From Solwaraspora sp. WMMD791 (lineage in GTDB: Bacteria; Actinomycetota; Actinomycetes; Mycobacteriales; Micromonosporaceae): DNA of 64,000 nt. The stretch covers positions 1,612,001-1,676,000 of the forward strand of contig NZ_CP120737.1 in NCBI RefSeq assembly GCF_029581195.1, given 5' to 3'. Of the stretch, positions 5,061 to 30,850 are shown piece after piece. Below the pieces are notes generated by a model, which saw only the letters and a list, made by a program, of their open reading frames with translations, made no database searches and had not been told where the DNA came from. Position 1 is the first letter of the stretch. Each line of letters starts with the position of its first letter. Both the position numbers and the translations under genes were made by a program.

Positions 5061-5744
5061 ATGCCTGACAATGGCAAATCCGCAGGTGAAGACCCTGGCC
5101 GACCAGGCCGGCCGGCGCGGAAAGTATCCGAACGGCTGGCGCTGGCCGGCTTGGTGGTCACCGTGCTGGGGGTGATCGTCGCCGTGTTCGCCTGGCTCTT
5201 TCCGGTCGGACAGCAGGCGACACCCGCGCCGACGACGTCGAGCGATCCAACGGTGACGGTGCCGGCGGTCACGTCGCCCGACGCCCCCCAGGATGGCTCC
5301 CCCGCCACGACCAGGGTCGAATACCTTTCCGCGCTCCCGGCCCACGCCGGCACCACCAATCTGACGGAACTTCCACGCGAACTGCGAGACACCGCCGGAT
5401 TCGATCGGGCCATCATGATCAAATGCCCGAGCAACCAGAGCATCGACAAAGTCAGCAAGGTCACCTATCAGCTCCTTGGCCGATTCGACACGTTCCAGGC
5501 GACCGTTCGGCCGTATTTCGAGAGCCAACCGGACGCCCGGATGCACGTCGAGGTCCTGGTCGGCGAACGCACTCGCGACGGCCGCCTGGCGTGGGCAGTC
5601 GGCGGCGGACAGTACGAGGCGACCGCCGAAGAGCCCAAACCGCTCGACGCGGTCGTCGAGGGCATGCAGGAGCTGGAGATCCAGGTCCGGTGTCAACTGC
5701 CGGACGGGGTGGCGATCCTGGTCGACGCCGCCCTGTACGAGTGA
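5061..5744 (+). CDS. Membrane-anchored protein, possible NPCBM-like C-terminal domain
   Basis: 227 residues: a basic N-terminus, one membrane segment (about 30-50, ALAGLVVTVLGVIVAVFAWL), a Thr/Pro-rich linker, and a C-terminal domain. The YQLLGRFDTFQATV stretch followed by short beta strands and LEIQVRCQLPDGVAILVDAAL resembles the NPCBM carbohydrate-binding fold. That resemblance is by eye and weak. Divergent from the anchored protein at 4126-4881 across a 179-bp gap holding the shared promoters. A GC hairpin follows its stop directly, so it is not part of the urease operon. Confidence 0.55.
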   Translation: MPDNGKSAGEDPGRPGRPARKVSERLALAGLVVTVLGVIVAVFAWLFPVGQQATPAPTTSSDPTVTVPAVTSPDAPQDGSPATTRVEYLSALPAHAGTTNLTELPRELRDTAGFDRAIMIKCPSNQSIDKVSKVTYQLLGRFDTFQATVRPYFESQPDARMHVEVLVGERTRDGRLAWAVGGGQYEATAEEPKPLDAVVEGMQELEIQVRCQLPDGVAILVDAALYE

Positions 5745-5819: not shown

Positions 5820-5876
5820 GTCAGAATGCCAGCATCTGGCACGACCCAGGTCTCGATCGCTCATGGAGGTCCGGTT

Positions 5877-6179
5877 TTGTTTCTCACCCGGCACGAGCAG
5901 GAGCGACTGCTCATCCACGTCGCAGCCGACGTGGCCTGGAAACGCCGTGAGAGGGGCATCCGGCTCAACCACCCGGAGGCGACCGCGGTGATCACCGCCT
6001 TCCTGCTGGAAGGTGCCCGGGACGGCCGCAGCGTGGCGGAGCTGATGGAGGCCGGGCGCCACGTGCTCGGTCGCGAGGACGTGCTCGACGGAGTGCCGGA
6101 GATGCTCCCCGAGGTGCAGGTGGAAGCCACCTTCCCCGACGGGACGAAGCTGGTGACCGTACACGAGCCGATCTCCTAG
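5877..6179 (+). CDS. ureA: Urease gamma subunit
   Basis: 100 residues, exactly the usual UreA length when started at TTG 5877, giving the family N-terminus [18 protein letters not shown] lies 7 nt upstream of this TTG. An in-frame ATG at 5826 would add 17 residues not found in the family and would ignore that ribosome-binding site, so it is rejected. UreA forms the small structural subunit of the (UreABC)3 urease that hydrolyses urea to ammonia and carbamate in the cytoplasm. First gene of ureABCFGD; ureB follows after 8 nt. Confidence 0.95.
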
Positions 6180-6187
6180 GAGCGAGA

Positions 6188-6607
6188 TTGAGCGCACCAC
6201 CCACGCCGTCGGGCACCGACGGCGGCACAGTCGTTCCCGGTGAACTCGTCCCCGGCGACGGGCCGATCACCCTCAACTCCGGCCGACCGGTGCTGACCCT
6301 GGCCGTGGTCAACACCGGTGACCGGCCGGTGCAGGTCGGTTCGCACTACCACTTCGCCGAGGCCAACCCGGCGCTGGACTTCGACCGCTCCGCCGCCTGG
6401 GGGCACCGGTTGGCGGTGGCCGCCGGCACGTCGGTGCGCTTCGAGCCCGGGGTGGACCGTGAGGTCGATCTGGTGCCGTTCGGCGGTCGGCGGATCGTCG
6501 CCGGGCTGCGCGGCGAGTGCGCCGGCCCGGTCGACGAACGGCGGCCCGGCGCTACGGCGGGCGACACCGCAGCAGGCGACGGCGACGAGGCGGGAGACGC
6601 GGCGTGA
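6188..6607 (+). CDS. ureB: Urease beta subunit
   Basis: 139 residues from TTG 6188, with AGGAG just upstream at the end of ureA. Conserved UreB core: [16 protein letters not shown] near the N-terminus, then [18 protein letters not shown], and the [11 protein letters not shown] equivalent ([13 protein letters not shown]). The C-terminal 25 or so residues are an acidic Gly/Ala/Asp extension beyond the normal domain. Its stop overlaps the ureC GTG start. Structural role: packs against UreC and helps cover the active site. Confidence 0.95.
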
Positions 6608-8340
6608 GCACCCTCGACCGACGGCGGTACGCCGCCCTGCTCGGACCGACCGCCGGTGACCGGATCCGGCTGGCCGACACCAACCTGCTGATCGAGATCG
6701 AAGAGGACCGGTGCGCCCCACCCGGTGCCGACGGCACCCCGGCGTACGGCGACGAGGTGGTCTTCGGCGGCGGCAAGGTGATCCGCGAGTCGATGGGCCA
6801 GTCCCTGGCGACCCGGGCCGACGGCGCCCCGGACACGGTGATCACCGGTGTGGTGGTGCTGGACCACTGGGGCATCGTCAAGGCCGACGTCGGCATCCGC
6901 GACGGCCGGATCGTCGCGCTCGGCAAGGCCGGCAACCCGGACACCATGGACGGCGTTCACCCGGACCTGGTCATCGGGCCGGGCACCGAGATCATCGCCG
7001 GCAACGGCAAGATCCTCACCGCCGGGGCGATCGACAGTCACGTACACCTGATCTGCCCGCAGATCCTGGAGACCGCGCTGGCCAGCGGGATCACCACGAT
7101 CATGGGTGGCGGCACCGGGCCGGCCGAGGGCACCAAGGCCACCACGGTCACCCCCGGTCCGTGGCACCTGGGCATGATGCTGGCCGCGCTCGACCCCTGG
7201 CCGGTCAACGTGCTGCTGCTCGGCAAGGGCAACACGGTCAGCGAGGCGTCGCTGTGGGAGCAGCTGCGCGGCGGTGCCGGCGGCTTCAAGCTGCACGAGG
7301 ACTGGGGCACCACCCCGGCGGCGATCGACGCCTGTCTGCGGGTCGCCGACGCCTCCGGCGTGCAGGTGGCGATCCACACCGACACTCTCAACGAGGCCGG
7401 GTACGTGGAGTCGACCCTGGGCGCGATCGCCGGCCGGTCCATCCACGCCTACCACACCGAGGGGGCCGGTGGCGGGCACGCGCCGGACATCATGCGGGTC
7501 GCGGCGGAGCCGAACGTGCTGCCGTCGTCGACCAACCCGACCCGCCCGCACACCGTCAACACCCTCGACGAGCACCTCGACATGCTGATGGTCTGCCACC
7601 ATCTGAACCCGAGCGTGCCCGAGGACCTGGCGTTCGCCGAAAGCCGGATCCGGCCGTCCACGATGGCTGGTGAGGACATCCTGCACGACCTCGGTGCGAT
7701 CTCGATGATCGGCTCGGACTCGCAGGCGATGGGCCGGGTCGGCGAGGTCATTCTGCGTACCTGGCAGACCGCGCACGTGATGAAGGCCCGCCGGGGCGCG
7801 CTGCCCGGCGACGGCGCGGCCGACAACATGCGGGCCCGGCGGTACGTCGCCAAGTACACGATCTGCCCGGCGGTGGCGCACGGCGTCGACGGCGAGGTCG
7901 GCTCGGTGGAGCCGGGCAAGCTGGCGGATCTGGTGCTGTGGGATCCGGTCTTCTTCGGCGTCCGTCCGCACCTGGTGATCAAGGGCGGCATGATCGCCTG
8001 GGCGCAGATGGGCGACGCGAACGCCTCCATCCCGACCCCGCAGCCGATGCTGCCGAGGCCGATGTTCGGCGCGTACGGCACCGTGCCGGCAGCGACCAGC
8101 CTGGCGTTCGTCGCGCCGGCGGCGATCGACGCGCTGCTCGGCGACCGGCTCGGCATCCGCCGCCGGCTCGCCCCGGTCGCCGACACCCGCAGCCGGGGCA
8201 AGGCCGACATGCCGCTCAACGATGCCACGCCCCGGATCGAGATCGACGCGGACACGTTCACCGTCCGCATCGACGGCGAGGTGGTGGAGCCGGCCCCGGC
8301 CACCGAGCTGCCGATGGCGCAGCGCTACTTCCTGTTCTGA
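6604..8340 (+). CDS. ureC: Urease alpha (catalytic) subunit
   Basis: 578 residues from GTG 6604, overlapping the ureB stop as GTGA. All nickel-site elements are visible: HVH in [12 protein letters not shown], the lysine that is carbamylated (about K229, in GFKLHEDWG), HTDTLNE, the [12 protein letters not shown] loop, and the flap cysteine (about C331, MVCHHLNP). The C-terminus MAQRYFLF is typical. It hydrolyses urea at a dinuclear Ni centre. In this locus it would complete degradation of urea imported by UrtABCDE or released by the guanidine hydrolase at 15812. Confidence 0.98.
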
Positions 8341-8375
8341 TGACCAGTCGACTCGCGCTGACCGGTCGACCGTGA
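8340..8375 (+). other. 11-codon mini-ORF bridging ureC and ureF
   Basis: The ureC stop and an ATG overlap as TGATG at 8338-8342. That ATG opens [11 protein letters not shown], whose TGA (8373-8375) overlaps the ureF GTG (8372-8374). Ribosomes could therefore pass from ureC to ureF by termination-reinitiation without a free gap. Whether it is translated is unknown. Confidence 0.4.
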
Positions 8376-9104
8376 GCGGGCTCGCCACGCTGCTGGTGCT
8401 CGCCGACGGCCGGCTGCCGTCCGGCGGGCACGCCCACTCCAGCGGACTGGAGGCGGCGGTGGTCGCCGGCCGGGTCGCCGACCTGGACAGTCTGGCCGGG
8501 TTCCTTACCGGGCGGCTGGCCACCGGTGGACGTACCGCCGCCGCGTTCGCGGCAGCGGCGGCGGCAGGCGCGGCAGCGGCGGCGGCAGGCGCGGCAGCGG
8601 CGGCGGCAGGCGCGGCAGCGGCGGCAGCAGCAGGCGCGCGGGCGGAGGCGGCTGATGACGCCGCAACCAGGCTGGACGCGCTCGACGAGGGGCTCGACGC
8701 CCGTACCCCGTCTCCGGCGCTGCGCCGCGCGTCGCGGACCCAGGGTCGGGCGTTGCTGCGGGCCGGCCGGGGCATCTGGGCGATGCCGACCGACGGCCGA
8801 CGGGACCGCCACCAGCCGGTCGCGCTCGGCGCGGTGGCCGCCGCCGCCGGGCTCGGCCCGGCCGACGCGGCCCTGGCCGCCGCGTACGGCCTGGTCACCG
8901 GGCCGGCCAGCGCCGCGGTGCGCCTGCTCGGGCTGGACCCGTACGCGGTGCACGGCCTGCTGGCCCGGCTCGCCCCACAGATCGACGCCGTCGCCGCCGA
9001 GACCGCGACGATGGCCGGCTGGCCGGTCGACGAACTGCCCGCCGGGTCGGCCCCCGTTCCGGAGGTCGACGCCGAACACCATGCCACCTGGGAGGTGCGT
9101 CTCT

Positions 9105-9115
<11 letters not shown>
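8372..9115 (+). CDS. ureF: Urease accessory protein UreF
   Basis: 247 residues from GTG 8372. The N-terminal signature [24 protein letters not shown] is that of UreF. The middle (about residues 55-92) is an uninterrupted Ala/Gly tract encoded by a 21-bp tandem repeat, in a helical region that is not normally low-complexity. The later conserved part ([17 protein letters not shown]) is intact, so the gene appears functional. UreF joins UreD and UreG on apo-urease and gates nickel delivery. Its last 11 bases overlap the ureG start. Confidence 0.92.
8551..8637 (+). repeat. 21-bp tandem repeat in ureF coding poly-alanine
   Basis: Three perfect copies of GGCAGCGGCGGCGGCAGGCG-C (8551-8571, 8572-8592, 8593-8613) are followed by a 24-bp variant (8614-8637). 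Each copy adds seven residues, six Ala and one Gly. The perfect copies suggest recent slipped-strand expansion; copy number changes stay in frame. Confidence 0.9.
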
Positions 9116-9901
<786 letters not shown>

Positions 9902-9902
<1 letters not shown>

Positions 9903-9943
9903 TGCACCGGCGCAGCGACCTGTCATCGGAAGCCGCCGGCTGA
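9902..9943 (+). other. 13-codon mini-ORF bridging ureG and ureD
   Basis: The ureG stop overlaps an ATG as TGATG at 9900-9904. This ATG opens MHRRSDLSSEAAG, whose stop overlaps the ureD ATG, again as TGATG (9941-9945). The sequence GCCGGCTGATGC occurs at both ends, suggesting the bridge arose by duplication of the junction. Translation is untested. Confidence 0.4.
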
Positions 9944-10722
9944 TGCGGGCCAGGGCGCGGCTGGTCGCCGAGGTCGACGCCGCCGGGCGGACCCGGCTGG
10001 CCAGCCTGCGCGGCGAACCACCGCTGGTGCTGCGCCGCACCGGCCCCCGGTCGGCCGCCGACACCGACGAGGCCGAGGTGCATCTGGTCGGGGCGGCGGC
10101 CGGCCCGCTCGGCGGTGACGACCTGCGACTGGAGGTCGAGGTCGGGGCGGGGGCGCGGTTGTGTCTGCGTACGGTCGCCGCGTCGCTGGCGCTGCCCGGA
10201 GCCGGCGGCGGCCGGTCGGTGCTGGAGATGGTGGTCCGGGTCGCGGCGGGCGGCGTGCTGCGCTGGCTGCCGGAGCCGCTGATCGCCGCCACCGGCTGCG
10301 ACCACGTCTCCCGGTCGGTGGTGGAGCTCGCCGACGGCGCGTCGCTGGTGTGGCGCGAGGAGCTGGTCTGCGGCCGGGCCGGCGAGGCACCCGGCGACGC
10401 CCGGATCGACACGGTCGTGCGGTACGCCGGCCGGACGCTGCTGCGCACCGACCTGGCGGTGGGGCCGCGCGCCGCCGGCTGGGCCGGGCCGGCGGTGCTG
10501 GCCGGGGCGAAGGCGACCGGTTCGGTGCTGGTGGTACGGCCGCAGTGGGCCGACGATGGCCTGCCGGCGGCCGCCCCGCTGGGGGCGGGCGCGGCGCTGC
10601 TGCCGCTGGCCGGTGGCCCGGCGGTGCTGGTCACCGCGACCGGGCCGACCGCCCATCAGGTCCGCGCCCACCTCGACAGCGCCGCGGCGGGGCGGGGCTC
10701 GGACAGCGTCGCCGCGCGGTGA
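9943..10722 (+). CDS. ureD: Urease accessory protein UreD
   Basis: 259 residues from ATG 9943. UreD (UreH) is poorly conserved in sequence, but the pattern fits: GDDLRLEVEVGAGARLCLRTVAASLALPG near the N-terminus, LRWLPEPLIAATGCDH in the middle (the PEP-x-I motif), and DGASLVWREELVCGRAGE. It binds apo-urease first and recruits UreF-UreG. Last gene of the operon; a hairpin follows two bases after the stop. Confidence 0.9.
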   Translation: MRARARLVAEVDAAGRTRLASLRGEPPLVLRRTGPRSAADTDEAEVHLVGAAAGPLGGDDLRLEVEVGAGARLCLRTVAASLALPGAGGGRSVLEMVVRVAAGGVLRWLPEPLIAATGCDHVSRSVVELADGASLVWREELVCGRAGEAPGDARIDTVVRYAGRTLLRTDLAVGPRAAGWAGPAVLAGAKATGSVLVVRPQWADDGLPAAAPLGAGAALLPLAGGPAVLVTATGPTAHQVRAHLDSAAAGRGSDSVAAR

Positions 10723-14630: not shown

Positions 14631-15578
14631 ATGACTGGCAGGGGCGGCGGCGGAGGGGCCGCGACGTACGGCGGAAGAACGGCCCGGGCGGCGGGCGCCA
14701 ACGCGCAGGCGGGTGGGACGGCGCTGCTGCGGCGCCAGGTGGGGCGCTGGTTGGCGGCGCTGCGCCACGAGGCCGGGCTGTCCCAGGACACCGCCGCCGA
14801 CAAACTTCACCGGGGCAGCGGCACCCTGTGGCGGATCGAGGCCGGTGACCTGCGGATCCGCTGGAACGCGGCGGACATGTCGGCACTGTGCCAGCTGTAC
14901 GGGGCCGACGACGGGACCACCGAACGCCTGCTCGCCCTGGCAGCGGAGATCGACCGCCCAGCCCGGGGCCGCTGGTGGCACGACGAGCTGACCGGGCCGC
15001 CGGTCGACGCCGACCCGTACCCGACGTTCGAGCAGTCCGCGACGATGATCCGCTGCTACGGCCAGACGATGATCCCGGACCTGCTGCAGACCCCCGGGTA
15101 CGCCGAGGCGGTGCTGAGCTGCCCGGCCGGTCTGCGCAGCGACGACGAGATCGCCGCCCGCCTCGACCAGTTGGCCGCCAGGCAGCGGCACCTGCTGACC
15201 CATCCGCACCCGCCGGCGGTGCAGGTGATCGTCAACGAAAGTGCACTACGGCGTACCGTCGGCGGCCCGGCTGCGATGCGGGCCCAGCTCGACCACCTGC
15301 GCTCGCTCGCGATCACGCCGGGGTTCTCGGTGCGGGTGCTGCCGCATGCCGGCGGCGCGCACGCCGGCATGACCAACTCGTTCACCCTGCTGCGCTTCGC
15401 CGCGACCACGATGGCTCCCGGACGGCAGGTGGCCGCGCCGGGGCTGGTCCGGCTCGGCACCCTGACCGGGACGATGTACCTCGACCAGTTGGCGCACGTC
15501 GCCGCGTACGAGCAGGTCTGGTCCGACCTGGCCACCCGAGCGCAGCCGACACGGAAAGGCAACGGGGCAGCAAAGTGA
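14631..15578 (+). CDS. XRE-family regulator with DUF5753 domain
   Basis: 315 residues from ATG 14631. After a Gly/Ala-rich head, the HTH lies at about 35-85 (WLAALRHEAGLSQDTAADKL, then GTLWRIEAGDLRI). The remainder is the DUF5753 ligand/dimerisation region, recognised by RWWHDEL, the YGQTMIPDLLQTPGYAEAVL stretch and late FTLLRF. Such regulators are usually followed by a DUF397 gene. None is present here: after the stop there is only an 11-codon GTG frame overlapping as GTGA, and then the guanidine riboswitch. Confidence 0.85.
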   Translation: MTGRGGGGGAATYGGRTARAAGANAQAGGTALLRRQVGRWLAALRHEAGLSQDTAADKLHRGSGTLWRIEAGDLRIRWNAADMSALCQLYGADDGTTERLLALAAEIDRPARGRWWHDELTGPPVDADPYPTFEQSATMIRCYGQTMIPDLLQTPGYAEAVLSCPAGLRSDDEIAARLDQLAARQRHLLTHPHPPAVQVIVNESALRRTVGGPAAMRAQLDHLRSLAITPGFSVRVLPHAGGAHAGMTNSFTLLRFAATTMAPGRQVAAPGLVRLGTLTGTMYLDQLAHVAAYEQVWSDLATRAQPTRKGNGAAK

Positions 15579-15618
15579 CCGAAACCACAGCGGCGTCTAC
15601 TCCGAGGTGACTCACCAA

Positions 15619-15760
15619 CGGTGAGGCGCACCTAGGGTTCCGCCGCCGCCGGGCAGCCAGAGACGGGCAGCCGACGACGGGACTGGTCCAAGAGGTGCAG
15701 GCGCTGGACCGCCGACACGGGCGGGCGCGGCGTTCCACGGCGGGACAAAAGCCCGGGAGG
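15619..15760 (+). ncRNA. Guanidine-I riboswitch (ykkC class)
   Basis: The conserved ykkC blocks appear in order and spacing: CTAGGGTTCCG (15632-15642), ACTGGTCCAAGAG (15682-15694), ACACGG (15715-15720) and GGGACAAAAGCCCGGGAG (15742-15759). Variable GC stems lie between them. These blocks are diagnostic of the aptamer that binds guanidinium and switches on guanidine export, transport or degradation genes. It lies 52 nt upstream of the hydrolase start and should control that gene and the following importer. The third G of the usual GGTCCGAGAG is A here. Confidence 0.93.
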
Positions 15761-15790
15761 CAGCCGGATGTCTGGCTGTGCCTCAGCCAG
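15761..15790 (+). promoter_or_regulatory. Probable expression platform of the guanidine riboswitch
   Basis: CAGCC (15761-15765), immediately after the aptamer, can pair with GGCTG (15774-15778). The same GGCTG can instead form a 7-bp stem CTGGCTG/CAGCCAG (15772-15778 with 15784-15790). These are mutually exclusive hairpins placed between the aptamer and the GGAGG ribosome-binding site at 15801. Confidence 0.5.
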
Positions 15791-15811
15791 GCCCTCATTC
15801 GGAGGTGCCCC

Positions 15812-16972
15812 GTGGGCTTCCACCACCATCATCACCACAATCACCAGCACCGCGACGAGCAGCAAGGACCGGAGCTGCACGGCAACTACGGCCCGGAGGC
15901 GGCGTACGCGGTCGCCCGCGAAGCCGAACTGCCCACCACCAAGTGGGAAGAGGAGATCGCCCGCGGCCTGGAGTACGGCCTGCCCGGCGCGGACTCGATC
16001 GTCGACAAGCGGATCCCGACGTTCTCCCGTGGGGAGTTGCCGCACTTCGCCGGGATCAACACCTTCCTGAAGGCGCCGTACGTCGAGGACGTGCGTCGCT
16101 GTGGCGAGTACGACGTGGCGGTGCTCGGCGCACCGTTCGACGGTGGTACGACGTACCGCTCGGGGACCCGGTTCGGTCCACAGGGCATCCGCAAGATCTC
16201 CGCGCTGTACGGGCCGTACTCGTTCGAACTCGGTGTCGACCTGCGCGAGTCGATCACCATCGCCGACCTCGGCGACGTCTTCACCATCCCGGCGAACATC
16301 GAGAAGACCTTCGACCAGATCTCCAAGGCGGTCAGCCACGTCTACTCCTCCGGGGCGTTCCCGGTGGTGCTCGGCGGGGACCACTCGATCGGCTACCCGA
16401 CGGTGCGCGGTGTCGCCGAACACCTCGACGGCAACCTCGGCATCATCCACTTCGACCGGCACGTCGACACCCAGGAGACCGACCTCGACGAGCGGATGCA
16501 CACCACCCCGTGGTTCCACGCCACCGACATCCCGAACGTGCCGCCGAAGAACCTGGTGCAGATCGGCATCGGCGGCTGGCAGGCCCCCCGCCCGGGAGTC
16601 AAGGTCGGCCGGGAACGCGGCACCACGATCATGACGGTCACCGACTGCGTCGAGATGGGCATCGAGGCCGCCGCCGAGAAGGCCCTGGAGGTCGCCTGGG
16701 ACGGGGCCGAGGCGGTCTGGCTGTCGTTCGACGTGGACTGTCTGGACGCCGCGTTCGTGCCCGGCACCGGCTGGCCCGAGCCGGGCGGTTTCCTGCCCCG
16801 CGAGGTGCTCAAGTTCATCCAGCTGATCGCCGAGAAGCCCCTCGCGGGCATCGAAGTGGTGGAGTGCTCGCCGCCGTACGACAACGCCGACATCACCTCG
16901 CTGATCGCCACCCGGGTCATCTGCGACACCCTCGGCTGCCTGGTCCGCGCCGGACACCTGCCGCGCCGCTGA
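15812..16972 (+). CDS. gdmH: Probable Ni-dependent guanidine hydrolase (ureohydrolase family)
   Basis: 386 residues from GTG 15812, 6 nt after GGAGG. The ureohydrolase fold is clear: GAPFDGGTTYRSGTRFGP, metal ligands in GGDHS (H191), HFDRHVDT (D215, H217, D219) and SFDVDCLD (D307, D309). It differs from agmatinases in Arg216 inside the HFDxH motif and in Trp321 (PGTGWPEPGG, usually Thr), changes compatible with a small substrate pocket. The N-terminus begins MGFHHHHHHNHQH, a native metal-binding tail. Gene order with a guanidine-I riboswitch and an importer fits Sll1077-type guanidine hydrolase (guanidine to urea plus ammonia) better than agmatinase. The specificity is inferred. Confidence 0.85.
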   Translation: MGFHHHHHHNHQHRDEQQGPELHGNYGPEAAYAVAREAELPTTKWEEEIARGLEYGLPGADSIVDKRIPTFSRGELPHFAGINTFLKAPYVEDVRRCGEYDVAVLGAPFDGGTTYRSGTRFGPQGIRKISALYGPYSFELGVDLRESITIADLGDVFTIPANIEKTFDQISKAVSHVYSSGAFPVVLGGDHSIGYPTVRGVAEHLDGNLGIIHFDRHVDTQETDLDERMHTTPWFHATDIPNVPPKNLVQIGIGGWQAPRPGVKVGRERGTTIMTVTDCVEMGIEAAAEKALEVAWDGAEAVWLSFDVDCLDAAFVPGTGWPEPGGFLPREVLKFIQLIAEKPLAGIEVVECSPPYDNADITSLIATRVICDTLGCLVRAGHLPRR

Positions 16973-17019
16973 GCCCCAGAAACACCTCCCCCACAATCCC
17001 CTCACGCAGGAGGACATAG

Positions 17020-18048
17020 ATGCGACGTACCGCCAGATCTTCCCGCCGATCCCCCACCCGCCGCCTGGTCTCGGCCGTCTGCGCGGCGATACTGCTGGTC
17101 ACCGCCGCCGGCTGCGGCGACAGCGAGCCCGATGGCGACGGCTCGACCACCGTACGGTTGGGGTTCAGCGCCTGGCCGGGCTGGTTCCCCTGGCAGGTCG
17201 CGCAGGAGCAGGGCCTGTTCGAAGCCAACGGGGTCGACGTCGAGTTGACCTACTTCGACAGCTACACCGACAGCCTGACCGCGCTGGCCACCGGCAACCT
17301 GGACGCCAACAGTCAGACCCTCAACGACACGCTGTCGTCGGTCAGCGGCGGCGCGGCGCAGACCGTGGTGCTGGTCAACGACAACTCGACCGGCAACGAC
17401 CAGATCATCGCCGCGCCGGGAATCGACTCGGTCGCCGACCTGGCCGGTAAGCGGGTGGCGATCGAGGAAGGCACCGTCGACCACTACCTGCTGCTGTTGG
17501 CGCTGGCCGAGGCCGGGCTGAGCGCCGACGACGTCGAGATCAGCCCGCTGCTGACCGACGCGGCCGCCGCCGCGTTCCTCGCCGGGCAGGTCGACGCGGT
17601 CGGGGCGTTCGCCCCGTTCACCACCACCGCGCTGGGCCGCGAGGGCAGCAGGGCGATCGCCACCTCGGCGGACTTCCCCGGCGCGATCCCCGACCACCTG
17701 GTGTTCGACTCGGCGTTCGTGGCCGCGCATCCGGAGCAGGTACAGGCCGTGGTGGACACCTGGTTCGACACCATCGGCTGGATCGCCGACAACCCGGACG
17801 AGGCCGTCGGGATCATGGCGGCCAAGGCGGGGGTCAGCGTCGAGGACTACCGCACGTACGACGCCGGGACGACGATCTTCGACCTGGCCGACAACCAGGC
17901 GGCGTTCGCACCGGGCGACACCCCGGCGAACCTGGACTTCCAGGCCCGGTCGATCGCCGAGTTCCTGGTGGAGACCGGCCTGGTGGACGAGGCACCACCG
18001 TTGGACGGGCTGCTCGACGGACAGTTCGTGGCGGCGGTCTCGCCGTGA
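17020..18048 (+). CDS. ABC importer substrate-binding lipoprotein, probably for guanidine
   Basis: 342 residues from ATG 17020 with a strong GGAGG. An Arg-rich leader ends in the lipobox LVTAAGC (Cys about 31), so the protein is anchored outside the membrane; the RRSPTRR run may also allow Tat export. The rest is an NMT1/SsuA-type periplasmic-binding fold (LGFSAWPGWFPWQVAQEQGLFE, later FAPFTTTALG). The family carries nitrate, sulfonates, taurine or thiamine precursors. Its place 47 bp after the hydrolase and under the same riboswitch suggests guanidine. It overlaps the permease gene by GTGA. Confidence 0.85.
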   Translation: MRRTARSSRRSPTRRLVSAVCAAILLVTAAGCGDSEPDGDGSTTVRLGFSAWPGWFPWQVAQEQGLFEANGVDVELTYFDSYTDSLTALATGNLDANSQTLNDTLSSVSGGAAQTVVLVNDNSTGNDQIIAAPGIDSVADLAGKRVAIEEGTVDHYLLLLALAEAGLSADDVEISPLLTDAAAAAFLAGQVDAVGAFAPFTTTALGREGSRAIATSADFPGAIPDHLVFDSAFVAAHPEQVQAVVDTWFDTIGWIADNPDEAVGIMAAKAGVSVEDYRTYDAGTTIFDLADNQAAFAPGDTPANLDFQARSIAEFLVETGLVDEAPPLDGLLDGQFVAAVSP

Positions 18049-18950
18049 CCGTCACCCGGGATCCGGTGACCGGACACGGCGGCCCGCACGGCGTTGACGG
18101 GGCGGCGACCGACAACGCGGACCGGGCGTCGTGGGGGCCGCTGCCCCGGCGGCGTCCGGCCCGCCGGGTGCCGGCGCTGCTGGCCATCCGTACGCCGATC
18201 CCGGCGGCCGGCCGGTGGACGTTGACGGTCGCCTCGATCGTGGTGCCGCTGGCCGCCTGGCAGATCGGCAGCATGCTGGTCGACGGGCGGCCGGACTTCC
18301 TGCCGTCACCGCTGGAGTCGGTGGCGGCCGGGGTGGAGATGGCCCGTACGGGTCAACTGTGGACCGACACCGCCGCGACCGTCGGCCGGGTGCTGCGCGG
18401 ATTCGGCCTGGCGGTGGCGGTGTCGGTGCCGCTCGGCCTGTTGATGGGCAGCTTCCAGGCGGGTCGAGCGGCGCTGGAGCCGATGATCGGCCTGCTGCGG
18501 TACCTGCCGGCCAGCGCGTTCATCCCGCTGCTGATCATCTGGTTGGGGCTGGGTGAGCCGTCCAAGGTGGCGTTGATCTTCATCGCGACGGTCTTCTTCA
18601 ACACGCTGATGACCGCCAACGTGGTCCGCACCGTGCCGGCCGGGCTGATCGACGTGTCGTACACCCTCGGGGCCCGGCGCTTCGAGGTGCTGCGCAAGGT
18701 GATCGTGCCGCACTCGCTGCCCGGCATGATCGACGCGATCCGGGTCAACGCGGCGGCGGCCTGGAACTTCGTGGTCGTCGCCGAACTGATCAACGCCCAG
18801 TCCGGGCTGGGCTACCGGATCGTCCGGTCGCAACGGTTCAACCAGCTCGACAACATCTTCGCCGTACTGATCGTGATCGCCCTGATCGGCGTGGCGATCG
18901 ACCTGGCCTTGCGGACGACCCGCGACCGGATCGGGAGGTGGGCATCGTGA
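18045..18950 (+). CDS. ABC importer permease, probably for guanidine
   Basis: 301 residues from GTG 18045, overlapping the binding-protein stop. After a soluble 50-residue head come about six membrane helices with the BPD_transp_1 (SsuC/NrtB/TauC) layout. The EAA coupling loop is seen as GLIDVSYTLGARRFEVLRKVIVPHSLPGMIDAIR. It would dimerise and pair with the ATPase encoded next. The long hydrophilic N-terminus is extra compared with a minimal permease. Substrate assigned by context only. Confidence 0.85.
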   Translation: MTVTRDPVTGHGGPHGVDGAATDNADRASWGPLPRRRPARRVPALLAIRTPIPAAGRWTLTVASIVVPLAAWQIGSMLVDGRPDFLPSPLESVAAGVEMARTGQLWTDTAATVGRVLRGFGLAVAVSVPLGLLMGSFQAGRAALEPMIGLLRYLPASAFIPLLIIWLGLGEPSKVALIFIATVFFNTLMTANVVRTVPAGLIDVSYTLGARRFEVLRKVIVPHSLPGMIDAIRVNAAAAWNFVVVAELINAQSGLGYRIVRSQRFNQLDNIFAVLIVIALIGVAIDLALRTTRDRIGRWAS

Positions 18951-19813
18951 CCTCGACCGAAACCGAAGCCACGACCGGTGCCGGGTCCGTGGCCCCGACC
19001 GCCGAGGCGCCACTGGTGCGGCTCGCCGGCGTCGGCAAGGACTTCCGGGCCGCCGCCGGCGGGTCGCTGCGCGCGCTCGACGGCGTGGATCTGGCGGTAC
19101 GCCGAGGCGAATTCGTCTGCCTGGTCGGCGCCTCCGGGTCGGGCAAGTCCACTCTGCTGTCGCTGATCGCCGGGCTGACCACGCCGAGCCGGGGAGCTGT
19201 GCTGCTCGACGGCACGGCGGTGACCGGGCCGGGACCGGACCGGGGGCTGGTGCTGCAGAGCGGTGCCGTCTACCCGTGGCGGACGGTGGAACGCAACGTC
19301 GCGTTCGGGCTGGAGCTGCTGCCGATCAGTCGGGCCGAACGGGCCCGTCGGGTCGCCTGGTACCTGGCCGAGACCGGGCTGACCGGGCTGCGGCACGCGC
19401 TGCCGAAGCAGCTCTCCGGCGGGCAGCGCCAGCGGGTGGCGATCGCCCGCGCGCTGGCCTGTGAGCCGCAGGTGCTGCTGCTCGACGAGCCGTTCGGTGC
19501 CCTCGACGTGCAGACCAAGGAGGACATGCAGCTGTTCGTCCGCCGGGTGTGGGCCGACACCGGCACCACCGTGGTGATGGTGACCCACGACGTCGAGGAG
19601 GCGGTCTTCCTCGGTCAGCGGGTGGTGGTGCTGGCCAGCGACCCGGGCCGGGTCGCCGCCGACCTGCCGGTGGAGCTGCCGCCCGACCGCGACGGCGTAC
19701 CCCGGGACCTGACTGTCAAGCGGCTGCCGGAGTTCCTGGCGCTGCGCGCCGATGTCGAGGACCAGGTCCGCGCCTACCACCAGCGGCACGCCGCCGCCGG
19801 GTCCGGCGGCTGA
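18947..19813 (+). CDS. ABC importer ATP-binding subunit, probably for guanidine
   Basis: 288 residues from GTG 18947, overlapping the permease stop, with GGGAGG 8 nt upstream. Walker A is GASGSGKST, Q-loop region VLQSGAVYPWRTV, signature LSGGQRQRVAIARAL, Walker B VLLLDEPFGALD, and switch histidine MVTHDVEEAVFL. This is the NrtD/SsuB/TauB class. It is the last gene of the riboswitch-led operon; a 49-bp gap then separates it from the convergent ABC-2 gene. Confidence 0.9.
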   Translation: MTSTETEATTGAGSVAPTAEAPLVRLAGVGKDFRAAAGGSLRALDGVDLAVRRGEFVCLVGASGSGKSTLLSLIAGLTTPSRGAVLLDGTAVTGPGPDRGLVLQSGAVYPWRTVERNVAFGLELLPISRAERARRVAWYLAETGLTGLRHALPKQLSGGQRQRVAIARALACEPQVLLLDEPFGALDVQTKEDMQLFVRRVWADTGTTVVMVTHDVEEAVFLGQRVVVLASDPGRVAADLPVELPPDRDGVPRDLTVKRLPEFLALRADVEDQVRAYHQRHAAAGSGG

Positions 19814-29908: not shown

Positions 29909-30850
29909 TCAGCGGCCGCGGGCGCGGCGCTCCTCGCGACGGGCCTCGAACCGCGCGGCGGCGGTCTCCAGCTGGTCCATCTGCGCGGCCAGCTGCTCCC
30001 GGGCCGCCTCACCGTCGGCGTCCAGCCCGGTGACGTTCCAGATGTCCCACTGGCGCAGCACCGGCGCGAGCACCTCGTCGCGGTGCTGACGCAGGTCGTA
30101 GATGCCGGCCAGGGCGATCGCCACCGACTTGCGGGCGAAGCCGTCGATCCCGGCACCGGGCATCTGGAAGTCGGCGACCACGTCGGCGACCGCCCGCATC
30201 GCCTGACTCGGCGCCAGCTCGAACGCCGCGCCGAGCAGGTTGCGGTAGAACATCATGTGCAGGTTCTCGTCGGCGGCGACCCGGGCGAGCAGCCGCTCGC
30301 AGTGCGGGTCACCGGTGGCCTTGCCGGTGTTGCGGTGCGAGATCCGGGTCGCCAACTCCTGGAACGACACGTACGCCAGGGAGTGCAGCACCTCGTCGCC
30401 GTGGACGTTGGCGTACCCGTTGGACATGTGCTCCATCCGGGCCCGCTCCAACGCCACCGGGTCGACCGCCCGGGTCACGGTCAGGTAGTCACGGATGGCG
30501 ATGCCGTGCCGCCCCTCCTCGGCGGTCCACCGGTGCACCCAGGTACCCCAGGCACCGTCGCGACCGAACAGGCTGGCGATCTCGTGGTGGTAGGACGGCA
30601 GGTTGTCCTCGGTCAGCAGGTTGACGATCAGCGCGGTCCGCGCGATGTCGGGGATCTGCGAGTCGGTCGGCGACCACGGCTCGCCGCCGAGCAGTCCGTC
30701 GAAGGTGCGCCCCTCACTCCACGGCACGTACTCGTGCGGGAACCACTCCTTGGCCAGACCGAGATGCCGGTTGAGGTTGTCGGCGACCACCGGTTCGAGC
30801 TCGATGAGCAGCGCGGTCTGGGACATCGGGGCGGTGGCGGCGACGGTCAA
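29909..30850 (-). CDS. Acyl-ACP desaturase (ferritin-like diiron enzyme)
   Basis: 313 residues from TTG 30850, which has GGGAG 7-8 nt upstream; an internal ATG at 30826 is the alternative. The FA_desaturase_2 fold shows two diiron half-sites: TAEEGRHGIAIRDYL and, after the intervening ligand in SFQELATRISH, VAADENLHMMFYR. It resembles mycobacterial DesA1/DesA2, soluble enzymes that introduce a double bond into acyl-ACP. The C-terminus is a charged coiled coil. Regulation is probably through the 35-bp palindrome just upstream; a hairpin closes the unit. Confidence 0.88.
   Translation of the reverse strand: MTVAATAPMSQTALLIELEPVVADNLNRHLGLAKEWFPHEYVPWSEGRTFDGLLGGEPWSPTDSQIPDIARTALIVNLLTEDNLPSYHHEIASLFGRDGAWGTWVHRWTAEEGRHGIAIRDYLTVTRAVDPVALERARMEHMSNGYANVHGDEVLHSLAYVSFQELATRISHRNTGKATGDPHCERLLARVAADENLHMMFYRNLLGAAFELAPSQAMRAVADVVADFQMPGAGIDGFARKSVAIALAGIYDLRQHRDEVLAPVLRQWDIWNVTGLDADGEAAREQLAAQMDQLETAAARFEARREERRARGR

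Follow-up and report, generated by a model that had tools for sequence, protein, structure and literature searches.

Gene content of the locus

We analysed a window of 64,000 nucleotides (nt) from the actinobacterium Solwaraspora sp. WMMD791 (contig NZ_CP120737.1, positions 1,612,001 to 1,676,000). On its forward strand, a Guanidine-I (ykkC) riboswitch aptamer precedes gdmH, a gene for a putative guanidine hydrolase that would carry nickel (Ni), and gdmH is followed by genes for a substrate-binding protein (SBP), a permease and an ATPase of an ATP-binding cassette (ABC) importer (Table 1). We consider it highly probable, judging from these sequences, that the riboswitch, gdmH and the importer form a guanidine-inducible operon for the use of guanidine as a nitrogen source. 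The aptamer motif, the enzyme family with its specificity residues, the gene order and its conservation, and a nearby set of urease genes were all computed directly.

Table 1. Features of the locus, with positions counted from the first base of the window
Feature	Position	Strand	Basis
Guanidine-I (ykkC) riboswitch aptamer	15621..15761	+	RF00442 full-length match; P1 covariation over 42 distinct sequences
52-nt expression platform, aptamer to start codon, with Shine-Dalgarno sequence (SD) GGAGGTG	15760..15811	+	No terminator-like site
gdmH, predicted guanidine hydrolase (guanidinase) of the Ni-dependent type, 386 amino acids, GTG start	15812..16972	+	PDB 9FEK/7ESR scores; T114, H230, W321, E351; PF00491
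His-rich N-terminal tail of GdmH, residues 4-13, HHHHHHNHQH	15821..15850	+	Sequence; recurs in relatives
SBP, SsuA family	17020..18048	+	TIGR01728 229 bits (cut-off 163.5); lipobox-like TAAGC near start, by eye
ABC permease, BPD_transp_1	18045..18950	+	PF00528; 4-nt overlap with SBP gene
ABC ATPase, taurine/nitrate type	18947..19813	+	PF00005; 4-nt overlap with permease gene
ureA, urease gamma subunit	5826..6179	+	PF00547 149.9 bits
ureB, urease beta subunit	6188..6607	+	PF00699 140.4 bits
ureC, urease alpha subunit	6604..8340	+	PF00449, PF01979
Frame holding ureF	8222..9115	+	PF01730 90.7 bits
ureG, approximate start; His-rich stretch before P-loop	9123..9902	+	PF02492
ureD, approximate start	9943..10722	+	PF01774 95.6 bits in longer frame 9751-10722

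The riboswitch aptamer

An earlier note on this DNA had placed four conserved ykkC blocks here, and both the sequence (CTAGGGTTCCG, CTGGTCCAAGAG, CACGG and GGGACAAAAGCCCGGGAG) and a covariance-model search bear this out. In a 301-base search the aptamer matched the whole of RF00442 (model positions 1-107) at 52.3 bits (E = 8.9e-9), a score that lies under the curated Rfam cut-off and is taken up below, and the second-best Rfam family in the same search reached only E = 1.6. At E <= 10 the aptamer was the sole RF00442 match in the 6.93-Mb single-contig genome.

The aptamer alignment comprised 43 aptamers, 42 of them distinct and the window's among them. Changes on both sides were seen at 4/6 pairs of stem P1, in 27 cells compared with 6.7 in shuffles. 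None of 500 shuffles reached this covariation score, and the signal was gone when the partners were slid. We also fetched 80 loci from other genomes (24 Nitrospira-type and 56 others, some ended by contig edges). A covariance model made from the 43 aptamers found the motif in the window and in 58/80 of these loci, partly by construction, as 42 rows of the search were the model's own training sequences; a further match at 29.6 bits was left uncounted. The aptamer lies directly before gdmH in 43 of the 80 loci and about 1.7-1.9 kb upstream of it in 13 Nitrospira-type loci, at a place where an APC permease is reported (PMC11410670). In the remaining two loci it also lies at a greater distance upstream of gdmH, in L041 ahead of the SBP gene, the other locus being L020. 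From membership of this riboswitch class we infer that the ligand is guanidine.

Three further elements lie close to aptamers. A perfect 6-bp hairpin, CTCACC-AAC-GGTGAG, stands at the 5' edge of the aptamer (window 15611-15625), and a gene for an HTH_31/DUF5753 regulator (window 14631-15578, same strand) ends about 40 nt before it. Locus L004 has a cobalamin riboswitch (5546-5679 on the minus strand, 54.7 bits) about 140 nt upstream of its Guanidine-I aptamer and on the opposite strand.

The predicted guanidine hydrolase

The 386-residue protein contains both motifs singled out in the earlier note, HFDRHVDT and PGTGWPEPGG, and the view that it is a Sll1077-type guanidine hydrolase, not an agmatinase, is upheld as far as the sequence goes. 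The nearest solved structures are 9FEK from Nitrospira inopinata at 723 bits and 7ESR/7OI1 (Sll1077) at 577 bits, followed in third place by proclavaminate amidino hydrolase at 189 bits; this ranking covers solved structures only. GdmH is far closer to two characterised guanidine hydrolases than to agmatinases. Of the refuting outcomes named in the earlier note, the two open to computation, a missing covariance-model hit and a place among agmatinases, both failed to appear. 9FEK is described as the N. inopinata guanidinase, which forms urea from guanidine but hardly any from agmatine, and 7OI1 and 7ESR as the Synechocystis enzyme (PMC11410670).

The same report lists residues T105, H222, W313 and E344 for the N. 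inopinata enzyme and ties T105 and W313 to guanidine specificity (PMC11410670). Mapped by hand through the structure-search alignment, these correspond to T114, H230, W321 and E351 in the window's GdmH. Over 117 GdmH sequences, the window's included, T114 and H230 are kept in 117 and W321 and E351 in 116, and the Arg of HFDRHVDT is kept in 117/117. The enzyme very probably splits guanidine, and by close homology the products would be urea and ammonium, with nickel in the active site. The genome carries no second close copy of gdmH, the one other match being a 60-residue stretch at 33%. An AlphaFold prediction of GdmH from 15 close rows (mean predicted local distance difference test score, pLDDT, 47.7) was too poor to be informative about the tail and was not used.

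The importer

The importer that the earlier note described as NrtABC/SsuABC-type does come next on the same strand, its three genes spanning 17020-19813, and the SBP gene is spaced 47 nt from gdmH. With its neighbouring genes for an SBP, a permease and an ATPase from these families, the locus has the make-up of an importer of the SsuA/NrtA/TauA type. For the ATPase gene, whose longest frame begins at 18938, the GTG at 18947 was chosen as the start.

That the importer belongs to the unit is supported by gene-order conservation. In 33 of the 56 non-Nitrospira loci, genes for SBP, permease and ATPase come after gdmH on the same strand; the three genes precede gdmH in two loci and are divergent in one. 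The genes after gdmH were viewed in 24 loci without this importer, and the transporter family was checked in five of them. An APC-type permease follows gdmH in L013 and L026 and a sodium:solute symporter in L021 (by Pfam), and the record annotation gives a sodium:solute symporter in L089 and an L-lactate permease in L092. For several of the 24, no transporter could be made out behind gdmH. Different transporters swapped in at this place argue for one shared cargo. Within the SBP, the acidic positions D103, D121, D127 and D225 are among those invariant in a 65-row alignment, which fits a cation as ligand, if weakly. The SBP and ABC transporter probably bring in guanidinium.

Urease and the end of the proposed pathway

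A separate urease operon, ureABCFGD, lies about 5 kb upstream of the gdmH unit on the same strand and had escaped the earlier note. UreC is encoded within the gdmH flanks in 12/80 loci, 11 times on the same strand, and also in the Rubrobacter plasmid locus L089. The urease operon at 5.8-10.7 kb would turn urea into ammonia and CO2, and known chemistry applied to both steps would give three ammonia per guanidine in all.

Two Rfam matches at gathering level were also recorded. 5_ureB_sRNA matches window 6781-7073 on the minus strand, within ureC and antisense to it, and the ureC of L006 contains it too, so that it is probably due to coding conservation. ASdes matches window 30450-30517 on the plus strand.

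The histidine-rich tail and nickel supply

GdmH begins VGFHHHHHHNHQH, an unusual natural His-rich start not remarked on in the earlier note; outside this tail the protein has 2.5% His. Tails were counted in 108/117 sequences, nine distant ones without the YGPEA anchor being excluded. In scoring start codons, those 40-66 nt past the aptamer were given a bonus, which makes the choice lean to riboswitch spacing. At least two His occur in residues 2-9 of 62/70 GdmH with the switch directly upstream, a group that includes near-copies of one species from two collections and to which L029 and L032 were assigned by hand. Counting distinct starts with the switch directly upstream, 38/46 have at least two His, and His makes up 31.5% of residues 2-9. 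The same level is reached in 5/14 other loci (including two Chloroflexota, and L020 and L041 with the switch further upstream) and in 0/24 Nitrospira-type loci. The tail follows kinship, with 11 changes in a 116-row tree (L122 excluded), and the riboswitch also changes 11 times on it. A linkage between tail and riboswitch was considered and set aside, as supported branches gave only three independent pairs, of which a mean of 2.5 changed in the same direction, and this number is too small for a test.

The chance that the His run is not for metal at all comes close to even. Here, drifting G-poor CAC/CAT codons would keep the start region unstructured by the riboswitch. Over the 46 distinct starts, codons 2-9 are G-free in 227/368 cases, compared with 36.6% of core codons, and the length of the run varies within the genus, from four to seven His in a row. 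The tail is also commoner where the switch is directly upstream. However, His accounts for 116/227 of the G-free codons versus 11% in the core, so that the residue itself is favoured as well, and short starts that otherwise differ keep His (GHLHH, MHWH, MHYH, GFNHHHH).

That the tail of the actinobacterial GdmH is nickel-collecting, holding Ni for the active site and doing part of the work of Hyp-type delivery, is a tentative and rather unlikely reading. Once Met is removed, the His cluster often begins H2N-Gly-Phe-His or H2N-Gly-His, which are metal-binding N-terminal motifs. HypA (PF01155) had no match at E <= 0.001 in the window genome, where 7/14 control genomes were positive, and UreE_N (PF02814) likewise had none, with 2/14 control genomes positive; these negatives cover PF01155 and PF02814, UreE_C and HypB not being searched as such. 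Near gdmH, a profile from four HypA of other GdmH genomes found no HypA in 116 loci, in flanks of up to 6 kb that were often shorter and about 1.5 kb for L096-L124; as the profile hit only its own four source HypA, the control is not independent.

Searched by genome, HypA is present in 24/42 GdmH genomes and in 21/37 non-Nitrospira ones, the window's being among the 37. Its presence bears no visible relation to tail length: it is found with the strong tails of L004, L005, L016 and L039, and is absent in the window genome, L007 and L008. With HypA in 21/37 non-Nitrospira genomes, strong-tailed ones among them, we dropped the idea that the tail is a simple stand-in for HypA. We found no paper in the open-licence literature that joins a guanidinase with a histidine-rich stretch; for ureohydrolases in connection with nickel and His-rich N termini, the same literature gave one Helicobacter review.

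A His-rich stretch is also present before the P-loop of UreG (window 9123-9902). In a genome without a UreE_N match, this suggests that UreG carries a Ni store of its own.

The leader and its mode of control

The earlier note had put the enzyme gene 52 nt beyond the aptamer, and this is the distance we count from the final GGGAG of the aptamer to the GTG start. The gap is 44-63 nt in 37/43 aligned loci. We lean slightly towards a switch that acts on translation, with control of transcription as the main rival. Without guanidine, the 3' strand of the aptamer would pair with the start region or the linker; with guanidine bound, that strand would be locked into the aptamer and the start codon freed.

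The 3' strand (AAGCCCGGGAGGCA, 15749-15762) is complementary to the start region (TGCCCCGTGGGCTT, 15806-15819). In the window's genus this pairing comes to -22.6 to -23.0 kcal/mol, equalled by 4-6.5% of shuffles; one of the rows kept in the test has the same leader as the window. It exceeds the shuffle mean in 34/50 distinct leaders, most strongly in Micromonosporaceae, and 8/50 stand at 10% or better (p = 1.5e-4, kinship uncorrected). When the aptamer's GGGAG pairs with the linker, the helix is stronger than the median of shuffled linkers in 29/37 loci, with 8/37 at 10% or better (p = 8e-5, again uncorrected for kinship), and in the window alone 17% of shuffles are as strong.

Three things weigh against this picture of the leader. 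Both pairing tests that favour it rest on related sequences. Freeing of the SD on comparing the locked with the free aptamer was not seen (25/43 loci, p = 0.23). Lastly, Guanidine-I riboswitches are described as acting on transcription in the published accounts (PMC12186494, PMC11410670). The folding evidence is therefore mixed, and control is perhaps translational.

We put transcriptional control, through a U-poor or Rho-dependent terminator, at somewhat below an even chance. Besides the literature and the folding that shows no freed SDs, it can draw on a hairpin in the linker, CTGGCTG/CAGCCAG at 15772-15790. On the other side, a scan that requires a T-run found no terminator-like site on the plus strand of the leader, the short gap leaves little room, and the aptamer's 3' strand can pair around the start codon with the energies given above for the genus.

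The proposed operon and alternative readings

The model is of a unit for sensing, uptake and hydrolysis of guanidine in an actinobacterium, as the earlier note proposed, and conserved gene order supports its importer part. Guanidine would bind the aptamer in the mRNA leader and so switch on gdmH together with the three importer genes; the SBP and ABC transporter would bring guanidinium in, and GdmH would split it at a nickel site. What we infer here are the ligand, the substrate, the metal, the cargo of the transporter and the mode of switching.

Several observations count against this reading. At 52.3 bits, the aptamer scores below the Rfam gathering score of 63 for RF00442, and for this reason it is not listed in a default Rfam scan of the window. 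The cut-off is a curation threshold and not a biological property, and the likely cause of the low score is two long peripheral loops, with 25 and 19 inserted bases in the alignment. All nine hand-picked loci outside the window's genus passed it (66.8-87.2 bits) and all three same-genus loci tried (L096, L100, L101) fell below, in a comparison of 12 riboswitch loci chosen by us that leaves very-long-loop loci such as L012 and L016 outside the sample. The outermost P1 pair of the counted structure is open in 38/42 sequences. No solved SBP with a guanidine ligand was found among the structure matches, and the window genome has no HypA match, unlike the Synechocystis operon with its Ni-delivery proteins.

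It is improbable that the cargo of the ABC system is a different one, for example urea, nitrate or a sulfonate, and that the system is in the operon for general nitrogen scavenging. The family names of the importer do point to sulfonate, nitrate and taurine, the SBP matches a model for putative urea SBPs (TIGR03427) at 135.4 bits against a cut-off of 333.9, and its six relatives with solved structures comprise binding proteins for taurine, sulfonate, nitrate and pyrimidine precursors as well as unnamed ones. However, in many loci the importer comes after the same riboswitch and gdmH, unrelated secondary transporters take its place in some others, and the invariant acidic positions fit a cation, though weakly. 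The counterpart genes of Synechocystis are also reported to be up in guanidine-producing strains (PMC8390497).

It is very hard to credit that the enzyme is an agmatinase or another guanidino-compound hydrolase behind a riboswitch that merely signals toxicity: generic models do match GdmH (PRK02190 at 215.6 bits, TIGR01230 at 158.7) and its nearest relatives bear the PDB molecule names 'putative/probable agmatinase 2', but both scores are below the curated cut-offs (302 and 174.3 bits), the scores of 9FEK and 7ESR exceed that of the next ureohydrolase by a factor of three to nearly four, and the Thr and Trp of guanidine specificity are present.

Relatives and significance

Close relatives of GdmH, of at least 88% identity, were found in 29/150 sampled genomes of the window's family (its own included), and in seven more the only relative was one of 59-66%. 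G099, a genome of this family, carries a pair of gdmH-like genes that share 92% and 65% identity with the window's gene. Over the columns kept for the tree, GdmH rows from genomes of this family are identical to those of named loci from Catellatospora, Dactylosporangium and other Micromonosporaceae. In L020 (1287-5850), from an actinobacterial metagenome-assembled genome, the riboswitch is followed by a distinct ureohydrolase (370 amino acids; best PDB match 7ESR, 180 bits), a Rieske oxygenase, a metallo-beta-lactamase-fold protein and GdmH, a set that could strip an N-substituted guanidine before hydrolysis. In L069, the protein after gdmH opens with LGWEDLPKS, and so does the metallo-beta-lactamase-fold protein of L020.

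These results assign to an enzyme annotated in databases as agmatinase what is probably its real role in actinobacteria. The several importer types at one gene place should be useful for finding guanidine transporters, and with the His-tailed enzymes of actinobacteria it becomes testable how guanidinases acquire Ni.

Comparison with known systems

Systems of this kind are already known from cyanobacteria and nitrifying bacteria, and the cassette itself from Synechocystis. An SsuA-family SBP, a permease and an NrtD/SsuB ATPase under a guanidine riboswitch were described there in 2021, and the report extends this to a range of microorganisms (PMC8390497). In Synechocystis sp. PCC 6803, Sll1077 (GdmH) is reported with a guanidine riboswitch, hypA, hypB and sll1080-1082 (PMC8390497, PMC12186494). 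The window shares the Guanidine-I switch upstream of gdmH, the SsuA-family SBP, the permease and the NrtD/SsuB-type ATPase, and in both cases urease is encoded apart from this unit, for Synechocystis elsewhere in the genome (PMC11410670). It differs in that its genome has no HypA match, its GdmH has a His-rich tail, and its urease operon lies on the same strand about 5 kb away.

The N. inopinata guanidinase (9FEK), the closest structure, has the same four residues and a Guanidine-I switch, and the account of its locus reports no Ni chaperones nearby, their lack near comammox guanidinases being called unexpected there (PMC11410670). N. inopinata differs in having an APC permease between switch and enzyme, with no ABC importer nearby in that account (PMC11410670), and Nitrospira-type loci as a group lack the tail, none of the 24 having two His in residues 2-9. 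A further parallel is HypB of Bradyrhizobium japonicum, whose N-terminal tail is His-rich, with 24 His and 9 Ni per monomer reported (PMC7055735). Like HypB, GdmH would be a protein of a Ni pathway with a short His-rich N-terminal stretch; unlike HypB, it carries that stretch on the predicted Ni-type enzyme itself.

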